64,000 nt of DNA from Myxococcales bacterium. Its GTDB lineage: Bacteria > Myxococcota_A > UBA9042 > UBA3505. Positions 1 through 12,357 of the stretch are shown here, one piece after another. How positions within the stretch are numbered: the stretch's first letter is position 1; the number at the start of each line of letters is the position of its first letter. The stretch is from the NCBI GenBank assembly GCA_002728755.1, contig PBVT01000047.1, positions 62,001 through 126,000 on the forward strand, read 5' to 3'. Made by a program: the position numbers and the translations under genes. Under the pieces are notes generated by a model. It worked only from the letters and a program-made list of their open reading frames with translations, was not told the origin of the DNA and did no database searches.

Positions 1-437
1 ATTCGGCTGAGCGTCTCAAGACCCGTAACGATTTTCTGGAACGCACCTTTCTTCTTGGTGGTGAAATCATGGGTCTCTTCATCGCCACCCTGAAGGCTTA
101 TACGCCAGGCAATATTGTCGCCAAGGGCCATGACCTTACGGAGCCACTTCTCGTTCCAGAGACGAACCCCATTGGTGAATATTACGACCTCTTCAAACTC
201 ACAGGACACGGCGTGCTCAAGGAGCTCCATAAAGCTATGGTGAATCGTAGGCTCCCCTCCTAGAAAGGTGAACTTGGGTATTCCCATCGCCTTGGCGCGA
301 TCGATTTCCGAGCGGATCAATTCGGTATCGACCGGCTTTGCCAATCGAAGTTCAGTCATCTGGCCGCTTACACAAAAAACACAACGGTTATTGCATACAT
401 GACCAAGCTGGATTTCAAATCTCTGATCTGGTTCCAC
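1..437 (-). CDS. Radical SAM enzyme, 5' part only
   Basis: This is the N-terminal 145 codons of a radical SAM protein; the rest lies beyond the left edge. It is read on the minus strand from a GTG at 437. In-frame stops lie just upstream, so the start can hardly be earlier. The first residues run into CNNRCVFC, a CxxxCxxC [4Fe-4S]/SAM motif within the first 25 residues, followed by a SAM-binding LGGEPT motif and a FTNG strand, all in the order expected for the family. What it modifies cannot be told because the C-terminal half, where an auxiliary cluster domain might be, is missing. It lies 114 nt downstream of the TonB receptor on the same strand, so co-transcription is possible. It is separate from the three radical SAM genes further right. 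Confidence 0.85.
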   Translation of the reverse strand, partial: MEPDQRFEIQLGHVCNNRCVFCVSGQMTELRLAKPVDTELIRSEIDRAKAMGIPKFTFLGGEPTIHHSFMELLEHAVSCEFEEVVIFTNGVRLWNEKWLRKVMALGDNIAWRISLQGGDEETHDFTTKKKGAFQKIVTGLETLSR

Positions 438-551
438 GCAACCACTCTACGGAAAATCGTTACTCTACACCCCATATGGTCACTTGTTCACAAGCCTGCG
501 TCAAGACCAGAGCACCATTTAAACACGTTCACAGGGGCTATTCGTGCGCAT

Positions 552-6284: not shown

Positions 6285-6842
6285 ATGAGCACACCCGAAA
6301 TCTTTGTAATTGATGCTGAGCAAGGCCGTCTTAGCCTTCGTCTGAAAAAGGGCCTCTACCCCATGGACGCCGTGTATGGTGCGGCCTACGTCCTCATCGA
6401 TCGGAGCTATATTCTTCTCGATAAAGATGATGACGGGAATGTCCTTGTTCATATCCAGGCTAAGACTGGAAAAACAGATGAGCAGGATCTAAATGCACTC
6501 GCGGGCGATTTCGCGAATGAAGCACTTTCCCAAGTTCTTCGCTCCAAGGTTATGCGCGAACACAAGACTCGGATTGAGTCTATAATCTCTCAGGCCGTCG
6601 CAGGCGGACTAGGGATCAGCGCAGGAGATGATCTAGGGTTGGACGTACTCGATGGCGATGAAGACGACCTCGACTTCCTCGACGATCCTCTTGGAATTGC
6701 CGTTCCATGGGAAGAGAAATTCAAACGTTCCGCCAGTGAAGAACGCCCCGACACGAAGGACGACGGTACAGACTCACCACAACCGACACCGGCAGACTCG
6801 GGTGGTTTTCAGCCTGTAAAACCGGAAGGCCCCTCCGAATAG
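6285..6842 (+). CDS. HxsD-like protein, long form with acidic tail
   Basis: The first ~95 residues resemble HxsD of His-Xaa-Ser radical-SAM systems. A strand-turn-helix leads to AVYGAAYVLIDRSYILLDKDDDGNVLVHIQAK, split here by a short charged turn, then LAGDFANEALSQVLR. This matches the HxsD pattern of AAYxFIDRxYVxL, a charged turn, a VxLxxK strand, then a helix with an FxNE motif. Known HxsD proteins are about 90-100 residues. Here a low-complexity extension rich in Asp, Glu and Pro (about residues 110-185) is added, perhaps a flexible acidic linker. The family has no established biochemical role; it always travels with the radical SAM pair and the repeat peptide. The next gene, 19 nt downstream, looks like a short paralogue. 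Family assignment is from pattern memory, not a search. Confidence 0.7.
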   Translation: MSTPEIFVIDAEQGRLSLRLKKGLYPMDAVYGAAYVLIDRSYILLDKDDDGNVLVHIQAKTGKTDEQDLNALAGDFANEALSQVLRSKVMREHKTRIESIISQAVAGGLGISAGDDLGLDVLDGDEDDLDFLDDPLGIAVPWEEKFKRSASEERPDTKDDGTDSPQPTPADSGGFQPVKPEGPSE

Positions 6843-6861
6843 AGAGACTGGAGACACACTC

Positions 6862-7074
6862 ATGGAAGTTCGGTTTCACCAACGTATCTATACGAAAGAT
6901 GCGATCTCGGACGCGCTGGAAGCCTTCGAGGAATTCGGTACCTACAATACGGTCGAAGATGGAGACTATATCGTCGTCGAAATCAGTGAACCTGATGACG
7001 ATTTTTCGGCTGTTCTCCCACAAGAAATCGCCAATTACGTTCTAGCAAATGTGATTGAAGGGCGAAGAGATTAG
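6862..7074 (+). CDS. Short HxsD-like protein
   Basis: This is a 70-residue protein with the same apparent strand-helix-strand-strand-helix order as HxsD. VRFHQRIYTKDAISDALEAF is followed by an EEFGTYNT turn, a DYIVVEIS strand and a closing helix, EIANYVLANVI, which takes the place of the FxNExL helix. It lacks the conserved AAYxFIDR phrase, so it is a divergent relative at best. It starts 19 nt after the long HxsD-like gene with a GAGAC-type ribosome site and is surely co-transcribed with it. The small size and fold pattern would also suit a precursor-binding (RRE-like) adaptor, which is a guess. A short GC-paired hairpin (TCCTC/GAGGA) lies about 30-45 nt downstream, without a proper T-run. 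Confidence 0.65.
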   Translation: MEVRFHQRIYTKDAISDALEAFEEFGTYNTVEDGDYIVVEISEPDDDFSAVLPQEIANYVLANVIEGRRD

Positions 7075-7194
7075 ACCTCTTCGAAAACAGTTAAAAACCT
7101 CCGATCCTCGATATTTGAGGAGGGAAGTACACTGTCTGTTGATACCGGTGTAACGCCGATACCCATTGGTATGATTGAAAAACAGGCCTGTCAC

Positions 7195-7223
7195 TTGACA
7201 TCGGAGCCTTCGGTCCGTAAGAT
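7195..7223 (+). promoter_or_regulatory. Sigma70-type promoter for the Tat-signal protein gene
   Basis: A perfect -35 hexamer TTGACA (7195-7200) is followed after 17 nt by TAAGAT (7218-7223, 4 of 6 matches to TATAAT). The predicted transcript would start near 7230 with a ~35-nt leader before the ATG at 7265. Its -35 is identical to that of the repeat-peptide gene promoter at the other end of the locus. Confidence 0.55.
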
Positions 7224-7264
7224 TTTCTTGTTATTTAGGACACCTCTAACGTCAGGGATTAGAC

Positions 7265-7789
7265 ATGGCCGATTCCGTCTCAAGACGCTCCTTTATTCAG
7301 AAAACTTCCACGGGTGCAGCTGCCGTTGTGGCCGCAGGTACGCTTGGCGTAAATTTGGCTGAAGCCAAAGATGCTCAGCAGATCAAAGCCGCGCTTCCGG
7401 AAGGAACTCCTCAGACCTGGATTCACGAAACCCTTAATGTGGGTGATGTGGTTCACGGTTCTTGGGCGATCCAATCCGTAAGCCCTGTCTTTGCTGGTGG
7501 TATCGTTTTACAGCTAGCCGACGCGGATCAGAACCAGCTTCGAATTGATGTATGTCAGCTCGATTCCAGCTCCAACGGAGTAGAATCTACCGGAAAATGT
7601 GATCTTGTCCTCATGAACGGTGGTAATGGCCGTAAGTGGACCGCTCGTGATCACCATCTGGTTGTTCGTGCCGTTTCTGCGCGACTTGATACAGCGCAAA
7701 ACGCCACAAGCAAATCAGCACCTTTGCTTTCACACCGTCAGCGGTTGGAAGTATTCGGAGCTGCGAAGCTTGCGAGCAATCCAGCATAA
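7265..7789 (+). CDS. Tat-exported protein of unknown function in Hxs-like locus
   Basis: This is a 174-residue protein starting with a twin-arginine signal: SRRSFIQK, then an Ala/Gly/Val-rich hydrophobic stretch ending at NLAEA, a good signal peptidase I site. The mature part (~140 residues) appears all-beta (GGIVLQLADADQNQLRIDVC, then KCDLVLMNGG, then HHLVVRAVSA). It has two Cys and no recognisable catalytic motif. Tat export suggests it folds or acquires a cofactor before leaving the cytoplasm. It sits between the HxsD-like pair and the radical SAM operon, facing the latter, with its own promoter and a shared terminator. A shared HGSW tetrapeptide with the end of the repeat peptide is probably chance. 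It could be the partner or acceptor for the modified peptide, but nothing in the sequence proves that. Confidence 0.8.
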   Translation: MADSVSRRSFIQKTSTGAAAVVAAGTLGVNLAEAKDAQQIKAALPEGTPQTWIHETLNVGDVVHGSWAIQSVSPVFAGGIVLQLADADQNQLRIDVCQLDSSSNGVESTGKCDLVLMNGGNGRKWTARDHHLVVRAVSARLDTAQNATSKSAPLLSHRQRLEVFGAAKLASNPA

Positions 7790-7830
7790 GTAGATTCGTC
7801 GGAATTTCCGATATGCGTTTCGAAAAATTT

Positions 7831-7878
7831 ACGCCCTGTTGGTTTGGCTTCGGCCAAACCAACAGTTGGCGTTTTTTT
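7831..7878. terminator. Bidirectional rho-independent terminator
   Basis: A perfect 13-bp stem (7836-7848 with 7853-7865) is closed by a TTCG tetraloop. It is extended by ACGCC/GGCGT pairing after a two-base bulge. A T7 run follows on the plus strand (7872-7878), and a run of five A just left of the stem gives a T-run for minus-strand transcripts. It ends both the Tat-protein gene and the converging radical SAM operon. Confidence 0.9.
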
Positions 7879-7892
7879 GTGCCCAAAATAGA

Positions 7893-9104
7893 CTAGCCTG
7901 CCTGGCGGTCCTCGGGATCACAAAGTTCGGTGGTTTCCATAGAGATACCCTGACGTTCGGCTTTACGGCCTTCTGCCCGCCGCTTCTTCTCCCAGAGTTT
8001 CTCTCCCGCCTCGGTAACCGCTCCTACCTTTAGACCGGTATCCACCATCTTCGCGGGATGCTCCCCTTCTTTTTTGCTTTTGCCCGAGTTTTCGCCGCGT
8101 TGGGCTTCTATACGACGCTGGAAATCTATCTTCCACTCTCGTATTCCCCGCAACCGATAACTGGGATCACTTGGATCTGTGATGATCTGCTCCACAATAC
8201 GATCCATGTCGACAAAGACAGGATAGAGCTCAACCGGATCGTAACCATCCCCCTGATCAAAGAGCCCACCACATATAGTCCGAAGGCTACAAACACCACA
8301 CGACTCAGAATAGAGGTGACCCCAATCGGTCTGCCGAACAGTTTGTTTATTGTCCAGGAAGTGAACAATACGTTCTTCCCCCTTTACAATCTTTCGAGTC
8401 TCCGTGCTGGCCCAGGCGAACTCGGTCATATAGCAAAGAGGAACCTTCTCGACTCGGAATGTTCGACCACTACTGTGAAGTAGGCTCATCGCTCGACGTA
8501 ACGACTCCTCGAAGTCCGATAGGCGAGGCGTAAATTGATCTTGATTTACCTCGGCCCGTCCCATTGATGGGTCCAGATTATTCCAAACGAAATGCCGAAT
8601 ATACGGATGGTTTTTGATCCAGTACTCGATATTTTCGTGGAGATGATCTGCGTTCATCTTACTTATTACGCAGTTGATATTTATATCGAGACCGAATTTA
8701 TGCGCGTTCTCTACTGCGGCATAGGCCTTTGGCAGAGTCCCTGGCAATCCTCTTAAGGCCGCCTCCACATCTGGTTTCAGCGAATACACCGAAATATGTA
8801 CATGCTGGAGACCGGCTTCCGCGAGTGCTTTCGCGAACTTCTCGTCAGCAAGACGCCAACCATTTGTGATCATCCGAACATGCAAACCCTGGTCACGAGC
8901 ATATCCAGCGATCTCGGGCAGGTCCGGATGAAGCGTCGGTTCTCCTCCCGTGAGAATCACCCCGAAATAGCCACGCCGGACAAAATCATCCACCAATGGC
9001 TTCATCGTATCCATATTATGGACATACGGGGTGGTCGGATTCGAACAGAAACCACAGAAGTGGTTACAGTGCCGTACTACCTGAAGATAACCGATATTGG
9101 CCAC
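7893..9104 (-). CDS. Radical SAM enzyme, third of three (Hxs-like locus)
   Basis: This is a 403-residue radical SAM protein starting at GTG, with GGGGA five bases upstream. It has HCNHFCGFC (C13, C17, C20) for the SAM [4Fe-4S] cluster, LTGGEPTLHP for SAM binding and a MITNG strand, then Cys224 and a C-x2-C-x5-C cluster (C269, C272, C278) followed by GG. That places a short twitch/SPASM-like auxiliary-cluster region at residues 220-285. The last ~85 residues are highly charged and probably disordered. The gene lies 15 nt after the second enzyme, so all three are translated from one message. Hxs systems as I know them carry two radical SAM enzymes (HxsB and HxsC); this one may be the additional enzyme, but I cannot say which of the three is extra. 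Confidence 0.88.
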   Translation of the reverse strand: MANIGYLQVVRHCNHFCGFCSNPTTPYVHNMDTMKPLVDDFVRRGYFGVILTGGEPTLHPDLPEIAGYARDQGLHVRMITNGWRLADEKFAKALAEAGLQHVHISVYSLKPDVEAALRGLPGTLPKAYAAVENAHKFGLDININCVISKMNADHLHENIEYWIKNHPYIRHFVWNNLDPSMGRAEVNQDQFTPRLSDFEESLRRAMSLLHSSGRTFRVEKVPLCYMTEFAWASTETRKIVKGEERIVHFLDNKQTVRQTDWGHLYSESCGVCSLRTICGGLFDQGDGYDPVELYPVFVDMDRIVEQIITDPSDPSYRLRGIREWKIDFQRRIEAQRGENSGKSKKEGEHPAKMVDTGLKVGAVTEAGEKLWEKKRRAEGRKAERQGISMETTELCDPEDRQAG

Positions 9105-9119
9105 AGATCCCCCGGATAT

Positions 9120-10853
9120 CTAGGCGATCATCGGAAACGAAGCTGTTTCCTTTTTCGCTGTGCCACCGATGGGATCACAGACCTTGAATCCATGATTTCG
9201 GAGATAGTTGATGTGAATACCTTCGCACTCTTCGCGTGACGAACACTGTTCACAGCGACGACTCTTGGAATAGTATTCCTCCGTCACATAATGGTGAACA
9301 TATGCGTCAAGGTCGAGAAGACCCTTCGGATCAACCAGATGACTATCTAGAATCTTACGATCCGTACCCTCCGGAGCCACTCCTGTTACACATTCGGGCA
9401 CATTCCGAAACCGCGTAGCGACAGTAGCAAGCTGACGGATCTCATCCGGCGTAGGATCGGTCGCTCTCGATTCAGATACATACTCATGATTTCGTAAGGT
9501 AAAGACGAGTTTCTCTGCGCAAGCCTTCACGTCATCCAAACGCGCAAGCAGCGTGGGCATCGTCTGCTGGTTCAACACAACCTCAAAGGCCTTAATCCCC
9601 GCATATTCCGCGTTGCTCGACAGAACACTCTCAACAGCGGCCGAGGTCGTTACTGCCCAACGGTCAATGGAAACAGGGAAGGAAGCCAACGCCTTGGCAT
9701 CTGGTATCTCACCGGATTCGAGTTCGAAGACACGCTCCTCCGCGTTTGCTTCGGAGTCTTTCCAGACATCAAGGCTCCCTTGCAGAGCTTTCACATCCTC
9801 TCCGATATACCAACGGCTTGCCGCTTTTTGTTCCGAGACCTGTTGTACGGCTCGTTCACTCGGTTCTTCACCGCTACGTAGACGAAGGCGTTCAAATTCC
9901 CCTTCCTTAAGCCAACGTTGATACGGCATCAATGTGTCCCGACAGATTCCATGGAGGAAGCAGTGGTCACATCGTTCACCATAGCAATCCGGAGGTACAC
10001 CAAAACGCGCCAGTCCCTCAAAGTTATGGCGGCCACCATTTATCTCATAGTGAAGCTTATGAGGATCCTGGATGAGGTGCTCATAATTCTCGAGATAGTT
10101 TACAGGAAGACGGTTCGTCCAAAGATAGACGCCAGGCAACTTGGATTTCTCAAATGCCTTCTGGAAATAGGGATAGGCATCATCATCAAGATCGAAAAAC
10201 AGCTGTTTTCTATAATCTGTAAACCCTCGTCCGAACGGTATGATGTAAAGAAGATCAAACTCCTTGATACCCAGATCCATAAAGAAATCGATCGTCTCGG
10301 GTAGCTGCTTGTAGTTCTGCTTGTTCACTACGATATCAATATTGATAACGACGCCACCGATAGCCTGTAGATTCCGAATTCCCTGGATCGCAGACTCAAA
10401 TGCCTGGGGTGTCCCTGTCAGACTGTCCTGCGTTTTCGCGTCGTGTCCATGTATGCTGAATGTCGCTTCTTTCAGACCTGCATGCGCTACAGCTCGTGCA
10501 AACTTTGGATACGCGAACATCATTCCATTGGAAACGGTCTGAATCCAATCGTACCCAAGCTCTCGGCCGTATTTTATGAACTTCACATAGTCTGGGTGGA
10601 TTGTTGGCTCTCCACCCGAAAGGATTAAGCGCGTTTTTCCCTGCTCTCGCCCCTTCCGGATATAGTCTCGAAGCTCATCACTATCCACATATGTTCCATT
10701 ATGGTTCCAGGAATCCAGACAGAATTTGCACCGCTGATTGCAGAGACGAGTCAAACGAACCCAATGGCGCTCGTCTTTTACCGCCGCTTCTTTCGTCTCA
10801 TCCTTCTCCAGGAGAGCCTCGTCTACGCCATGACTATTATTGAATTCCTGCAC
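9120..10853 (-). CDS. Radical SAM enzyme with two C-terminal Cys clusters
   Basis: This is a 577-residue radical SAM protein, long for a peptide-modifying enzyme. It starts at GTG; the ribosome site (GAGG) overlaps the stop codon of the preceding gene. The core has LCNQRCKFC (C38, C42, C45), ILSGGEPTIHP and a QTVSNG strand. A first auxiliary cluster is C-x4-C-x2-C-x5-C (C290, C295, C298, C304). A further ~230-residue region then ends in a second C-x2-C-x5-C cluster (C534, C537, C543), with EGIHINYLRNHG and Cys559. The second cluster resembles the C-terminus of the 305-residue enzyme next door (C-x2-C-x5-C, then VGVTSEYLAYYG). This hints at a fused or duplicated SPASM-type module. By size it is the best candidate for the HxsB-like partner. 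Confidence 0.88.
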   Translation of the reverse strand: MQEFNNSHGVDEALLEKDETKEAAVKDERHWVRLTRLCNQRCKFCLDSWNHNGTYVDSDELRDYIRKGREQGKTRLILSGGEPTIHPDYVKFIKYGRELGYDWIQTVSNGMMFAYPKFARAVAHAGLKEATFSIHGHDAKTQDSLTGTPQAFESAIQGIRNLQAIGGVVINIDIVVNKQNYKQLPETIDFFMDLGIKEFDLLYIIPFGRGFTDYRKQLFFDLDDDAYPYFQKAFEKSKLPGVYLWTNRLPVNYLENYEHLIQDPHKLHYEINGGRHNFEGLARFGVPPDCYGERCDHCFLHGICRDTLMPYQRWLKEGEFERLRLRSGEEPSERAVQQVSEQKAASRWYIGEDVKALQGSLDVWKDSEANAEERVFELESGEIPDAKALASFPVSIDRWAVTTSAAVESVLSSNAEYAGIKAFEVVLNQQTMPTLLARLDDVKACAEKLVFTLRNHEYVSESRATDPTPDEIRQLATVATRFRNVPECVTGVAPEGTDRKILDSHLVDPKGLLDLDAYVHHYVTEEYYSKSRRCEQCSSREECEGIHINYLRNHGFKVCDPIGGTAKKETASFPMIA

Positions 10854-10862
10854 CCTGATACC

Positions 10863-11780
10863 TCACGTTGTAGTACGACCAACTTGGCCCAAATCAGCCC
10901 GGTCGTCCAATGCAACTAATTCACCATCCCCATAGTATGCCAAATATTCACTCGTAACGCCTACACATTCGCCTCTAACCCTACAACTATCACAGGATTT
11001 TCCGAACGCAGGCTCTCCATTCTCCAAAGATTCCAGAGCCAATCCGTACCATAATGACTGCGTTCGATCGAGGTTGAATCGAACTTTATTGGCCTGACAA
11101 TCGGGGATTCCGTGAAGAAAGATAGAGAGCTCAGCCCGATTCGCCAACCGTACGGCTTGCTCGATATAGGGACGAACCATACTCAACTTCGGCACAAGGT
11201 TTGGTAGACGTTCCGGTTGTACAGCCCAACCCTCCGTCTGAACCATACGAAGATGCAGACTTTGAACCTTCAGCCGTGAAGACAGCCGAACCATCTCCGA
11301 GGCCAATCGATAATTACTTCGGGTTAAGACCATATGTACGTTAACCGCCGCGCCCTCCTTCTTAGCCTTCTGTATGCCGGATACCGTTTGACGAAAGGAG
11401 CCGGGAGCCTGCGTTAGCCAATCATGAACATCTGGCTCGGGACCATGGAGAGATATCTCGAAACGGGTTACTCCATCATTCAGCAGGTTTCGAACAAGAT
11501 CGCCGTACGCAAGCATTCGACCATTCGTGAAGACCCCAATATCTTTCGCCCCCTGGGCCAGAGCCAACTTCGCACCACGTTGGACAATATCCGGCTGTAA
11601 GGTTGCCTCACCACCACAGAACGTAATTCTTCCTTCGGCAGATCCACGCACGGCTTGCTCGACAGCCTCATCCAACCAGTCACCGTCTTCTTGCAGCGGG
11701 CCCTTATCCCCCTGATTACAAAACCTGCATGCATTATTGCAGGCGGAACCCAAAAATATCCGGTGATCGTTCGTAGTCAT
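10863..11780 (-). CDS. Radical SAM enzyme, first of three (Hxs-like locus)
   Basis: This is a compact 305-residue radical SAM protein. SACNNACRFCNQG supplies C14, C18 and C21; ITFCGGEATLQP is the SAM-binding GGE region; VFTNG follows. The C-terminus carries Cys228 and a C-x2-C-x5-C cluster (C263, C266, C272), then VGVTSEYLAYYGDGEL, a SPASM/twitch-like ending. It is the first enzyme gene after the repeat-peptide gene, separated by 169 nt that hold a hairpin terminator. A weak -10-like TAGAAT lies about 30 nt before the ATG, so some independent transcription is possible. The size is in line with an HxsC-like role. It probably acts on the His-Xaa-Ser peptide in the cytoplasm; the actual chemistry (crosslink, epimerisation or other) cannot be read from the sequence. 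Confidence 0.88.
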   Translation of the reverse strand: MTTNDHRIFLGSACNNACRFCNQGDKGPLQEDGDWLDEAVEQAVRGSAEGRITFCGGEATLQPDIVQRGAKLALAQGAKDIGVFTNGRMLAYGDLVRNLLNDGVTRFEISLHGPEPDVHDWLTQAPGSFRQTVSGIQKAKKEGAAVNVHMVLTRSNYRLASEMVRLSSRLKVQSLHLRMVQTEGWAVQPERLPNLVPKLSMVRPYIEQAVRLANRAELSIFLHGIPDCQANKVRFNLDRTQSLWYGLALESLENGEPAFGKSCDSCRVRGECVGVTSEYLAYYGDGELVALDDRADLGQVGRTTT

Positions 11781-11887
11781 CGAATAATCACAACGATCGA
11801 ATCACTATTCTAACGAACATTCGACAACGACCGACTTTCATCTGTTGTAAACGCAGCGGCATAAATCAGATGCCCACCAAAAATACA

Positions 11888-11915
11888 AAGAGGTCCTTTC
11901 AAAAAAGGACCTCTT
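11888..11915 (-). terminator. Hairpin between peptide gene and enzyme operon
   Basis: A perfect 12-bp inverted repeat (11888-11899 with 11904-11915) has loop CAAA. On the minus strand it is followed by GTATTTTTGG, a run of five U. It lies 35 nt past the stop codon of the repeat-peptide gene and 107 nt before the first enzyme gene. It would let the peptide be made in excess, with partial read-through into the enzymes. That is a common arrangement in RiPP operons. Confidence 0.8.
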
Positions 11916-11949
11916 ACGTACACGAATGTTCGTAAATAGCTACTGGTTA

Positions 11950-12288
11950 CTACCAGGAACCGTGGGATCCATGAGAACCATGAGAACCATGAGAACCATG
12001 AGAACCATGAGAGCCGTGGGAACCGTGGGAACCGTGAGAACCATGGGAACCATGAGAACCATGGGAACCATGAGAACCATGAGAACCGTGCGAACCGTGG
12101 GAACCATGGGATCCATGGGAACCATGCGAACAATGCGCAGAGATTGTTCCATCTCCTAATACATCGCCCACTGTACCGGCGCCGCCAGTCATCATGAGAG
12201 AGTCTGGGCTACGGCTAATAGCCTCTTCGTCCTTCAACAAGTAACCGGCTACTTTCTTTGTTTTCTTCGGAAGTTTTTTCTTCGCCAT
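11950..12288 (-). CDS. HxsA-like His-Xaa-Ser repeat peptide precursor
   Basis: This is a 112-residue peptide with two clearly different halves. Residues 1-51 form a leader-like part: a Lys-rich start, then an acidic and polar stretch, then MMTGGAGTVGDVLGDGTIS with a double glycine at 35-36. Residues 52-111 are exactly 20 tandem His-Xaa-Ser triplets, the first HCS and the next 19 HGS, and the chain ends in Trp. His-Xaa-Ser tandem repeats are the defining feature of HxsA, the presumed target of the Hxs radical SAM pair. The neighbouring radical SAM and HxsD-like genes support this. Unlike many exported peptides it has no obvious Sec or Tat signal. A consensus promoter sits just upstream and a terminator just downstream. 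Whether the leader is cleaved, and where, is unknown. Confidence 0.85.
   Translation of the reverse strand: MAKKKLPKKTKKVAGYLLKDEEAISRSPDSLMMTGGAGTVGDVLGDGTISAHCSHGSHGSHGSHGSHGSHGSHGSHGSHGSHGSHGSHGSHGSHGSHGSHGSHGSHGSHGSW
11956..12135 (-). repeat. 20 x 9-bp tandem repeat coding for His-Xaa-Ser
   Basis: The repeat region is a 180-bp minisatellite of nine-base units, each coding HGS (the first codes HCS). Units differ only at synonymous positions (Ser as TCT or TCC, His CAT or CAC, Gly GGT), giving near-identical DNA copies. Units stay in frame on gain or loss, so slipped-strand changes would alter the number of modified triplets without breaking the gene. Confidence 0.95.
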
Positions 12289-12327
12289 GGTGTCGCACCG
12301 TTAAATGTCTGGAAGTTATAGTGAAGG

Positions 12328-12357
12328 ATTATAACGATCACAGAGCCGCAGTGTCAA
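12328..12357 (-). promoter_or_regulatory. Consensus sigma70 promoter for the repeat-peptide gene
   Basis: Read on the minus strand, TTGACA (12357-12352) and TATAAT (12333-12328) are both perfect hexamers with an 18-nt spacer. Transcription would begin near 12321, leaving a ~33-nt leader before the ATG at 12288. This is the strongest promoter I can see in the window. A six-base inverted repeat, GTTATA/TATAAC, overlaps the -10 and could serve as an operator. Confidence 0.75.

Follow-up and report, generated by a model that had tools for sequence, protein, structure and literature searches.

What does a locus make in which a peptide built mainly of His-Gly-Ser (HGS) triplets lies beside three radical S-adenosylmethionine (radical-SAM) enzymes? 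The question is posed by positions 6285-12357 of the window, i.e., the whole 64,000-nucleotide stretch analysed here (Myxococcales bacterium, assembly GCA_002728755.1, contig PBVT01000047.1, positions 62,001 to 126,000). An earlier note on this DNA had described an extended His-Xaa-Ser (Hxs) locus, and all the gene parts it listed were located in this region. The seven genes form two convergent units, the plus-strand unit carrying, in order, hxsD (D1), hxsD-like (D2), and the gene of a twin-arginine translocation (Tat) signal protein, while the minus-strand unit, read from the right, carries hxsA4, rA, rB, and rC. With somewhat more confidence than doubt, we read the locus as an enlarged HxsA4-type Hxs peptide-modification system of Myxococcota, including the crosslinking and export steps proposed below. 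The features are as follows.

6285-6842, plus strand: hxsD (D1), 185 amino acids (aa); TIGR03976, 51.9 bits, cut-off 50
6862-7074, plus strand: hxsD-like (D2), 70 aa; NF038315, 66.9 bits, cut-off 41
7265-7789, plus strand: Tat-signal protein, 174 aa; TIGR01409, 23.5 bits, cut-off 16.7
7831-7872, both strands: hairpin common to the two convergent units, with a T-run on the plus side (RNA fold)
7893-9104, minus strand: rC, radical-SAM enzyme, 403 aa; Pfam Radical_SAM, 86.6 bits; CxxxCxxC
9120-10853, minus strand: rB, radical-SAM enzyme, 577 aa; CxxxCxxC; additional C-terminal half
10863-11780, minus strand: rA, radical-SAM enzyme, 305 aa; CxxxCxxC intact
11882-11921, minus strand: terminator-like hairpin and T-run in the gap between hxsA4 and rA (RNA fold), a possible attenuator
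11950-12288, minus strand: hxsA4 precursor, 112 aa; NF038313, 88.8 bits, cut-off 55
11956-12135, minus strand: array of 20 triplets, HCS and 19 HGS (Tandem Repeats Finder (TRF) and codon analysis)
12328-12357, minus strand: promoter TTGACA-18-TATAAT preceding hxsA4, a perfect consensus (12/12) of the sigma-70 type

The Hxs character of the locus is borne out by the curated models for HxsA4, HxsD, and HxsD-like, all of which score above their cut-offs. The HxsA4 peptide is composed of a basic leader of 51 aa, one HCS and 19 HGS triplets, and a terminal Trp, in agreement with the 20 tandem His-Xaa-Ser triplets noted before. Its suggested membership in HxsA stands for the HxsA4 model (NCBIfam NF038313) but not for TIGR03979, HxsA itself. 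In the DNA the array is a 9-bp tandem repeat of 19.9 copies with 87% match (TRF), and the differences between the 20 units all fall on third codon positions (6 in His, 3 in Gly, and 11 in Ser codons), except for one HGS-to-HCS change. Because these differences are synonymous apart from HCS, it is the protein sequence of the array that is maintained, and on the same grounds the array is neither a recent DNA repeat nor a reading frame open by chance. The same simplicity is seen in 37 arrays from the window and its relatives, where 629 of the 678 complete triplets are HGS and 31 are HCS, with serine codons alternating between TCN and AGY. Because His and Ser were set in the search pattern, what these arrays show independently is the identity of the middle residue, the lack of interruptions up to the end, and the synonymous character of the changes. 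The arrays are 6 to 53 complete triplets long, and in one genus two genomes combine an identical leader with 16 and 7 triplets, respectively.

The claim of two adjacent HxsD-like genes was confirmed by the HxsD and HxsD-like models together with the homology of D1 and D2 to each other (hhalign, 94.7%, E = 5.7e-8). D1 passes its model narrowly, while its relative in locus L144 reaches 61.9 bits. The predicted fold of D1 is beta-beta-alpha-beta-beta-alpha, a two-layer alpha/beta domain for which the AlphaFold predicted local distance difference test (pLDDT) exceeds 85 over residues 11-100, and its tail, predicted to be disordered, bears a DDPLGIA.PWEEK motif that is conserved in the alignment. 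As a whole, the AlphaFold models are of moderate quality (pLDDT 75.5 for HxsD and 71.6 for the Tat-signal protein). D1 bears a weak likeness to secretion chaperones and ferredoxin-like domains, which was not used. From their size, pairing, and universal presence, D1 and D2 would be adaptors.

The three tightly linked radical-SAM genes are all intact. The cysteines of CxxxCxxC are C13/17/20 in rC, C38/42/45 in rB, and C14/18/21 in rA, and each enzyme also has a C-terminal CxxC...C auxiliary-cluster motif. The additional C-terminal half of rB ends in a second CxxC...C and has no second CxxxCxxC; other families have a shorter rB in which this half is missing. The enzymes had been taken for HxsB and HxsC plus one extra radical-SAM protein, an assignment that the curated cut-offs rule out. 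Their best models are HxsC and HxsC4 at 101-113 bits, compared to cut-offs of 267.9 and 500, respectively; the HxsC4 model (NF038332) gives 112.5 bits for rA, 110.5 for rB, and 70.9 for rC, all far below the cut-off, and the HxsB model gives at most 41 bits. No HxsC equivalog was found in the source genome, the best score being 114 bits, and among the NCBIfam models no curated equivalog was matched by rA, rB, rC, or the Tat-signal protein. The true HxsB lies on another contig (G000:C111:16864-18267, 520 bits, cut-off 370), and since it is encoded there, the locus carries three enzymes beyond HxsB.

It could be argued that the system is a plain Hxs one without any new chemistry, the role of HxsC being taken by one of the three enzymes and the other two being redundant paralogues. 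HxsC or HxsC4 is indeed the best model for all three, the rA of family f5 is degenerate, and the rA of the window groups with canonical HxsC with a moderate support of 0.893 in a small tree. Such an explanation is nevertheless rather unlikely in our view, as rB and rC each form a deep clade of their own with support 1.0, none of the enzymes reaches the HxsC cut-off, which canonical HxsC from plasmids of Aeromonas and Klebsiella exceeds with about 400 bits, and the retention of rC in 141 genomes matches that of HxsD-like and HxsA4. For its deep branches the tree of HxsC-like enzymes is too divergent (supports 0.2-0.6), and it is reliable only for the clades of rB and rC.

Further enzymes of this kind are present in the genome. 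HxsC4-like radical-SAM genes lie at window positions 1-446 on the minus strand, crossing or just beyond the left edge and about 6 kb from hxsD, and at G000:C37:55705-62446 (L070). Two very large adjacent radical-SAM proteins of 998 and 628 aa are encoded at G000:C37:278425-283301 (L071:14425-19301, minus strand), the larger one containing two separate HxsC-like matches, with HxsC4 as its best model, below cut-off. In the genome contigs, 315 stretches related to rC were found. Beside HxsB itself, a second HxsB-like protein scores 193 bits and lacks CxxxCxxC (G000:C111:18455-19786; L102:14437-15846, minus strand). This dead relative also occurs in two other genomes, next to HxsB in G002 and immediately following D1-D2 in G021 (further coordinates L103:8779-10149 and L050:516-1907), and is perhaps a non-catalytic partner subunit.

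The distribution of the genes was followed in two genome sets, 36 genomes of the same class and 141 of the phylum Myxococcota. HxsD-like and HxsB share an identical set of 30 among the 36 class genomes; with the thresholds applied, rB and rC were each found in 28 of these 30, where the count for rB includes one weak match, in G020. The six class genomes that have no HxsD have none of HxsD-like, HxsB, rB, and rC either. Across the phylum set, HxsD-like is present in 47 genomes, rC in 46, and HxsA4 in 47. HxsD-like and rC are found together in 45 genomes and alone in only 2 and 1, respectively (Fisher 3e-33), and HxsD-like and HxsA4 likewise in 45 (Fisher 7e-32); all pairs among the three share 44-45 genomes, with Fisher values of 3e-33 to 2e-30. 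Given that the genes often lie on different contigs, this co-occurrence is not a by-product of linkage, and the idea that the three enzymes are accidental neighbours is ruled out by it. Since their presence and absence coincide throughout the phylum, the genes very probably encode a single pathway of peptide modification.

Linkage is also preserved in several families, so that, with the co-occurrence in the phylum set, the parts stay together in Myxococcota as the earlier note had anticipated. Family f5 shows the order rA-rB-rC-D1-D2-HxsB, the window-like order, with rC and the Tat-signal gene facing rB-rA-hxsA4, recurs in L140, L144, L146, and L198, and all eight genes (hxsA4, HxsB, D1, D2, rA, rB, rC, and the Tat-signal gene) stand together in L144, L198, L184, and L164. 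HxsB, unlinked to the window locus, is joined to D1-D2 in most relatives. Among 80 named rC loci, 29 have another core Hxs gene within about 10 kb, and many of the others are short contigs. Named records with the system include Polyangium, Minicystis rosea, Plesiocystis pacifica, Enhygromyxa salina, Nannocystis, and others in Myxococcota.

The co-occurrence also bears on a different explanation, that the HGS tail stays unmodified as part of a metal- or haem-binding or collagen-like extracellular protein, the radical-SAM enzymes acting on another substrate such as a cofactor. With Gly at every third residue, the array matches Pfam Collagen (PF01391) at 45.7 bits (cut-off 27.2), though its composition is Gly, Ser, and His only; His-rich tails bind metals, and the peptide gene adjoins ccmE and ccmF in family f6, while second HxsB copies adjoin cytochromes. 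We consider this quite improbable, however, since HxsA4 accompanies HxsB, HxsD-like, and rC almost without exception, the Ser and His positions vary no more than Gly does, and the array has no proline, unlike usual collagen repeats.

The neighbourhoods just mentioned deserve a brief description. In family f6 the unlinked hxsA4 (L114-L118, L121, and L122) adjoins the cytochrome c maturation genes ccmE and ccmF in 7/9 genomes, with an uncharacterised protein of about 190 aa encoded upstream of it in 9/9, and in family f5 an L,D-transpeptidase is encoded close to the peptide gene. These neighbours track family lines and are leads only. The second HxsB copies of family f5 are likewise only leads; they adjoin an MtrC-like multihaem cytochrome in L104 and L108 and a cytochrome c/rhodanese protein in L106, L107, L109, and L110; in L106 and L110 the neighbourhood also includes an HxsC4-like enzyme.

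Compared with canonical Hxs systems (TIGR03976-TIGR03979; Aeromonas salmonicida plasmid 4 and Klebsiella plasmids), the present one shares a His-Xaa-Ser repeat protein, HxsD, HxsB, and an HxsC-type radical-SAM enzyme. It differs in that HxsB is unlinked, there is no HxsC equivalog, and the set is extended by three HxsC-like enzymes and one more HxsD-like protein. The substrate differs as well, having a long tail, purely of HGS and closed by Trp, where the canonical protein has a short HxS stretch and a peptidoglycan-binding domain. The peptide and the HxsD-like protein pass NCBIfam NF038313 and NF038315, and the peptide subtype is thus already catalogued. What is new is the attachment of rA, rB, rC, and the Tat-signal protein to HxsA4 and HxsD-like, a combination that matches no curated model. 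The canonical hxsDBCA set is common on Klebsiella plasmids (318 records); in L243 (NZ_CP147170.1) it lies beside a mercury-resistance operon.

On the basis of these features, a mechanism can be proposed. Expression of HxsA4 would be driven by its own strong promoter, and the hairpin at 11882-11921 (-21 kcal/mol, z -6.7) would pass only a fraction of the transcripts into the enzyme genes, an arrangement that would yield much peptide and little enzyme. The convergent units would end at the shared terminator noted earlier, and a strong hairpin does lie where their ends meet (-30.3 kcal/mol on the plus and -29.9 on the minus strand, z -6.7 and -6.3, respectively). HxsD and HxsD-like probably act jointly as an adaptor that presents the HxsA4 leader, upon which HxsB and the HxsC-like rA, rB, and rC would work along the (His-Gly-Ser)n tail, modifying one triplet after another.

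As to the chemistry of this step, His at position i is followed by Ser at i+2 in 20/20 triplets, i.e., the aromatic-X-X motif of the triceptide type is present. Two triceptide precedents have this same i to i+2 spacing, namely His C2-Ala Cbeta (HaaB and ScaB) and Phe C4-Ser Cbeta (MscB) (reviewed in PMC11002830). By analogy, the likeliest bond would join the His ring to the beta-carbon of the Ser two residues on, repeated along the array; we give such a His-Ser crosslink a chance of about one in three. The likeness to the triceptide enzymes (XncB, OscB, MscB, HaaB, and ScaB) lies in the aromatic residue i and the partner at i+2, whereas the enzyme families here are others, several enzymes take part, adaptors of the HxsD type are present, and each peptide carries tens of identical motifs. 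TvgB, which forms poly-cyclopropylglycine (PMC9062424), is similar in that a radical-SAM enzyme acts repeatedly on a tandem-repeat precursor, but its motif is TVGG and a single enzyme is involved; Hxs enzymes appear in that work only as separate clusters. Epimerisation, Ser oxidation, and N-C bonds are open alternatives to the crosslink, because HxsB falls outside the known cyclophane-forming families by the models used. A new modification of the type found in ribosomally synthesized and post-translationally modified peptides (RiPPs) is possible. In the open-access literature on the Hxs names and on repeat-type radical-SAM RiPPs in myxobacteria, we found no biochemical study or product of an Hxs system, Hxs being treated as gene families only.

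The destination of the product would be the cell envelope. Canonical HxsA proteins combine an N-terminal signal-like segment, HxS repeats, and a peptidoglycan-binding domain, an architecture that points to the envelope as the place of action. The layout of leader plus core and the radical-SAM maturases, typical of RiPPs, could also suggest a secreted small natural product, an antimicrobial or a signal, freed by proteolysis of the array. This appears very improbable to us, as no recurring dedicated peptidase or ABC transporter was seen next to the genes, the array is long and monotonous, with up to 53 units, and canonical HxsA has its peptidoglycan-binding domain.

Returning to the enlarged Hxs system with its envelope-bound product, two routes of export can be envisaged. 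The presence of a Tat-exported protein in the locus is supported by the signal at 7265-7789, which passes TIGR01409, the export itself being predicted. Relatives of this protein occur in 34/141 genomes, and 34/34 of them carry Hxs genes. In Hxs genomes that lack it, the HxsA4 leader has a hydrophobic stretch like that of a signal peptide, e.g., ...AAAIGSFLLMAGTSGHALA..., and such a leader is found in 16/16 Tat-less genomes versus 1/31 peptides from Tat-bearing ones, where the limit is a 15-residue hydropathy maximum of 1.14 set after seeing the data, the G001 start was corrected by hand, and genomes belonging to the same family do not count as independent. In view of this complementary distribution, the Tat-signal protein may stand in for the lost signal, acting as escort or as docking partner. 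In some families the product would thus reach the envelope by a signal-like segment of its own, and in the source genome probably with the Tat-signal protein. We regard the complementarity as a hypothesis with good support rather than a proof.

Several observations weigh against the mechanism as a whole. The D1 model has no match in the PDB at E<=0.001, and the adaptor role is a guess because of this. The Tat-signal protein model likewise gave no structural match in the PDB at E<=0.001, and no function could be read from either model. While CxxxCxxC of rA is intact in the window and in G001, it is missing from the rA orthologue of family f5, and rA is therefore not a needed catalyst everywhere; some of these orthologues (e.g., L048:4374-5327 and L049:15826-16779) have Cys-X8-Cys-X2-Cys in its place and may be pseudo-enzymes or have an altered cluster site. 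In addition, the genes are dispersed in many genomes. No known maturase family of three-residue cyclophanes was found among the HxsB matches at E<1e-15 or among the 25 families shown for rA, rB, and rC, and since HxsB is not close to the known cyclophane models, the bond type is taken from the spacing of the residues only. Finally, the correlation between Tat-signal protein and leader tracks family lines, depends on a post hoc threshold, and has one exception.

A more far-reaching version of the proposal can be formulated, which we judge unlikely. Here, HxsB, rA, rB, and rC, together with the dead HxsB-like partner and the two HxsD adaptors, would put different bonds into every triplet to give a long His-Gly-Ser ladder polymer; the peptide, folded, modified, and without a signal of its own, would hitch-hike across the membrane on the Tat-signal protein, and the product would serve as an envelope or electron-transfer polymer.

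For the Myxococcota, the phylum-wide profile assigns extra enzymes to the Hxs pathway, including ones that were missed because they are often unlinked and have no curated model. It predicts repeated modification on an unusually simple substrate and defines a testable list of parts, namely HxsA4, HxsB, D1, D2, rA, rB, rC, and the Tat-signal protein, while the complementary occurrence of the signal-like leader and this last protein points to a directly testable mechanism of export.

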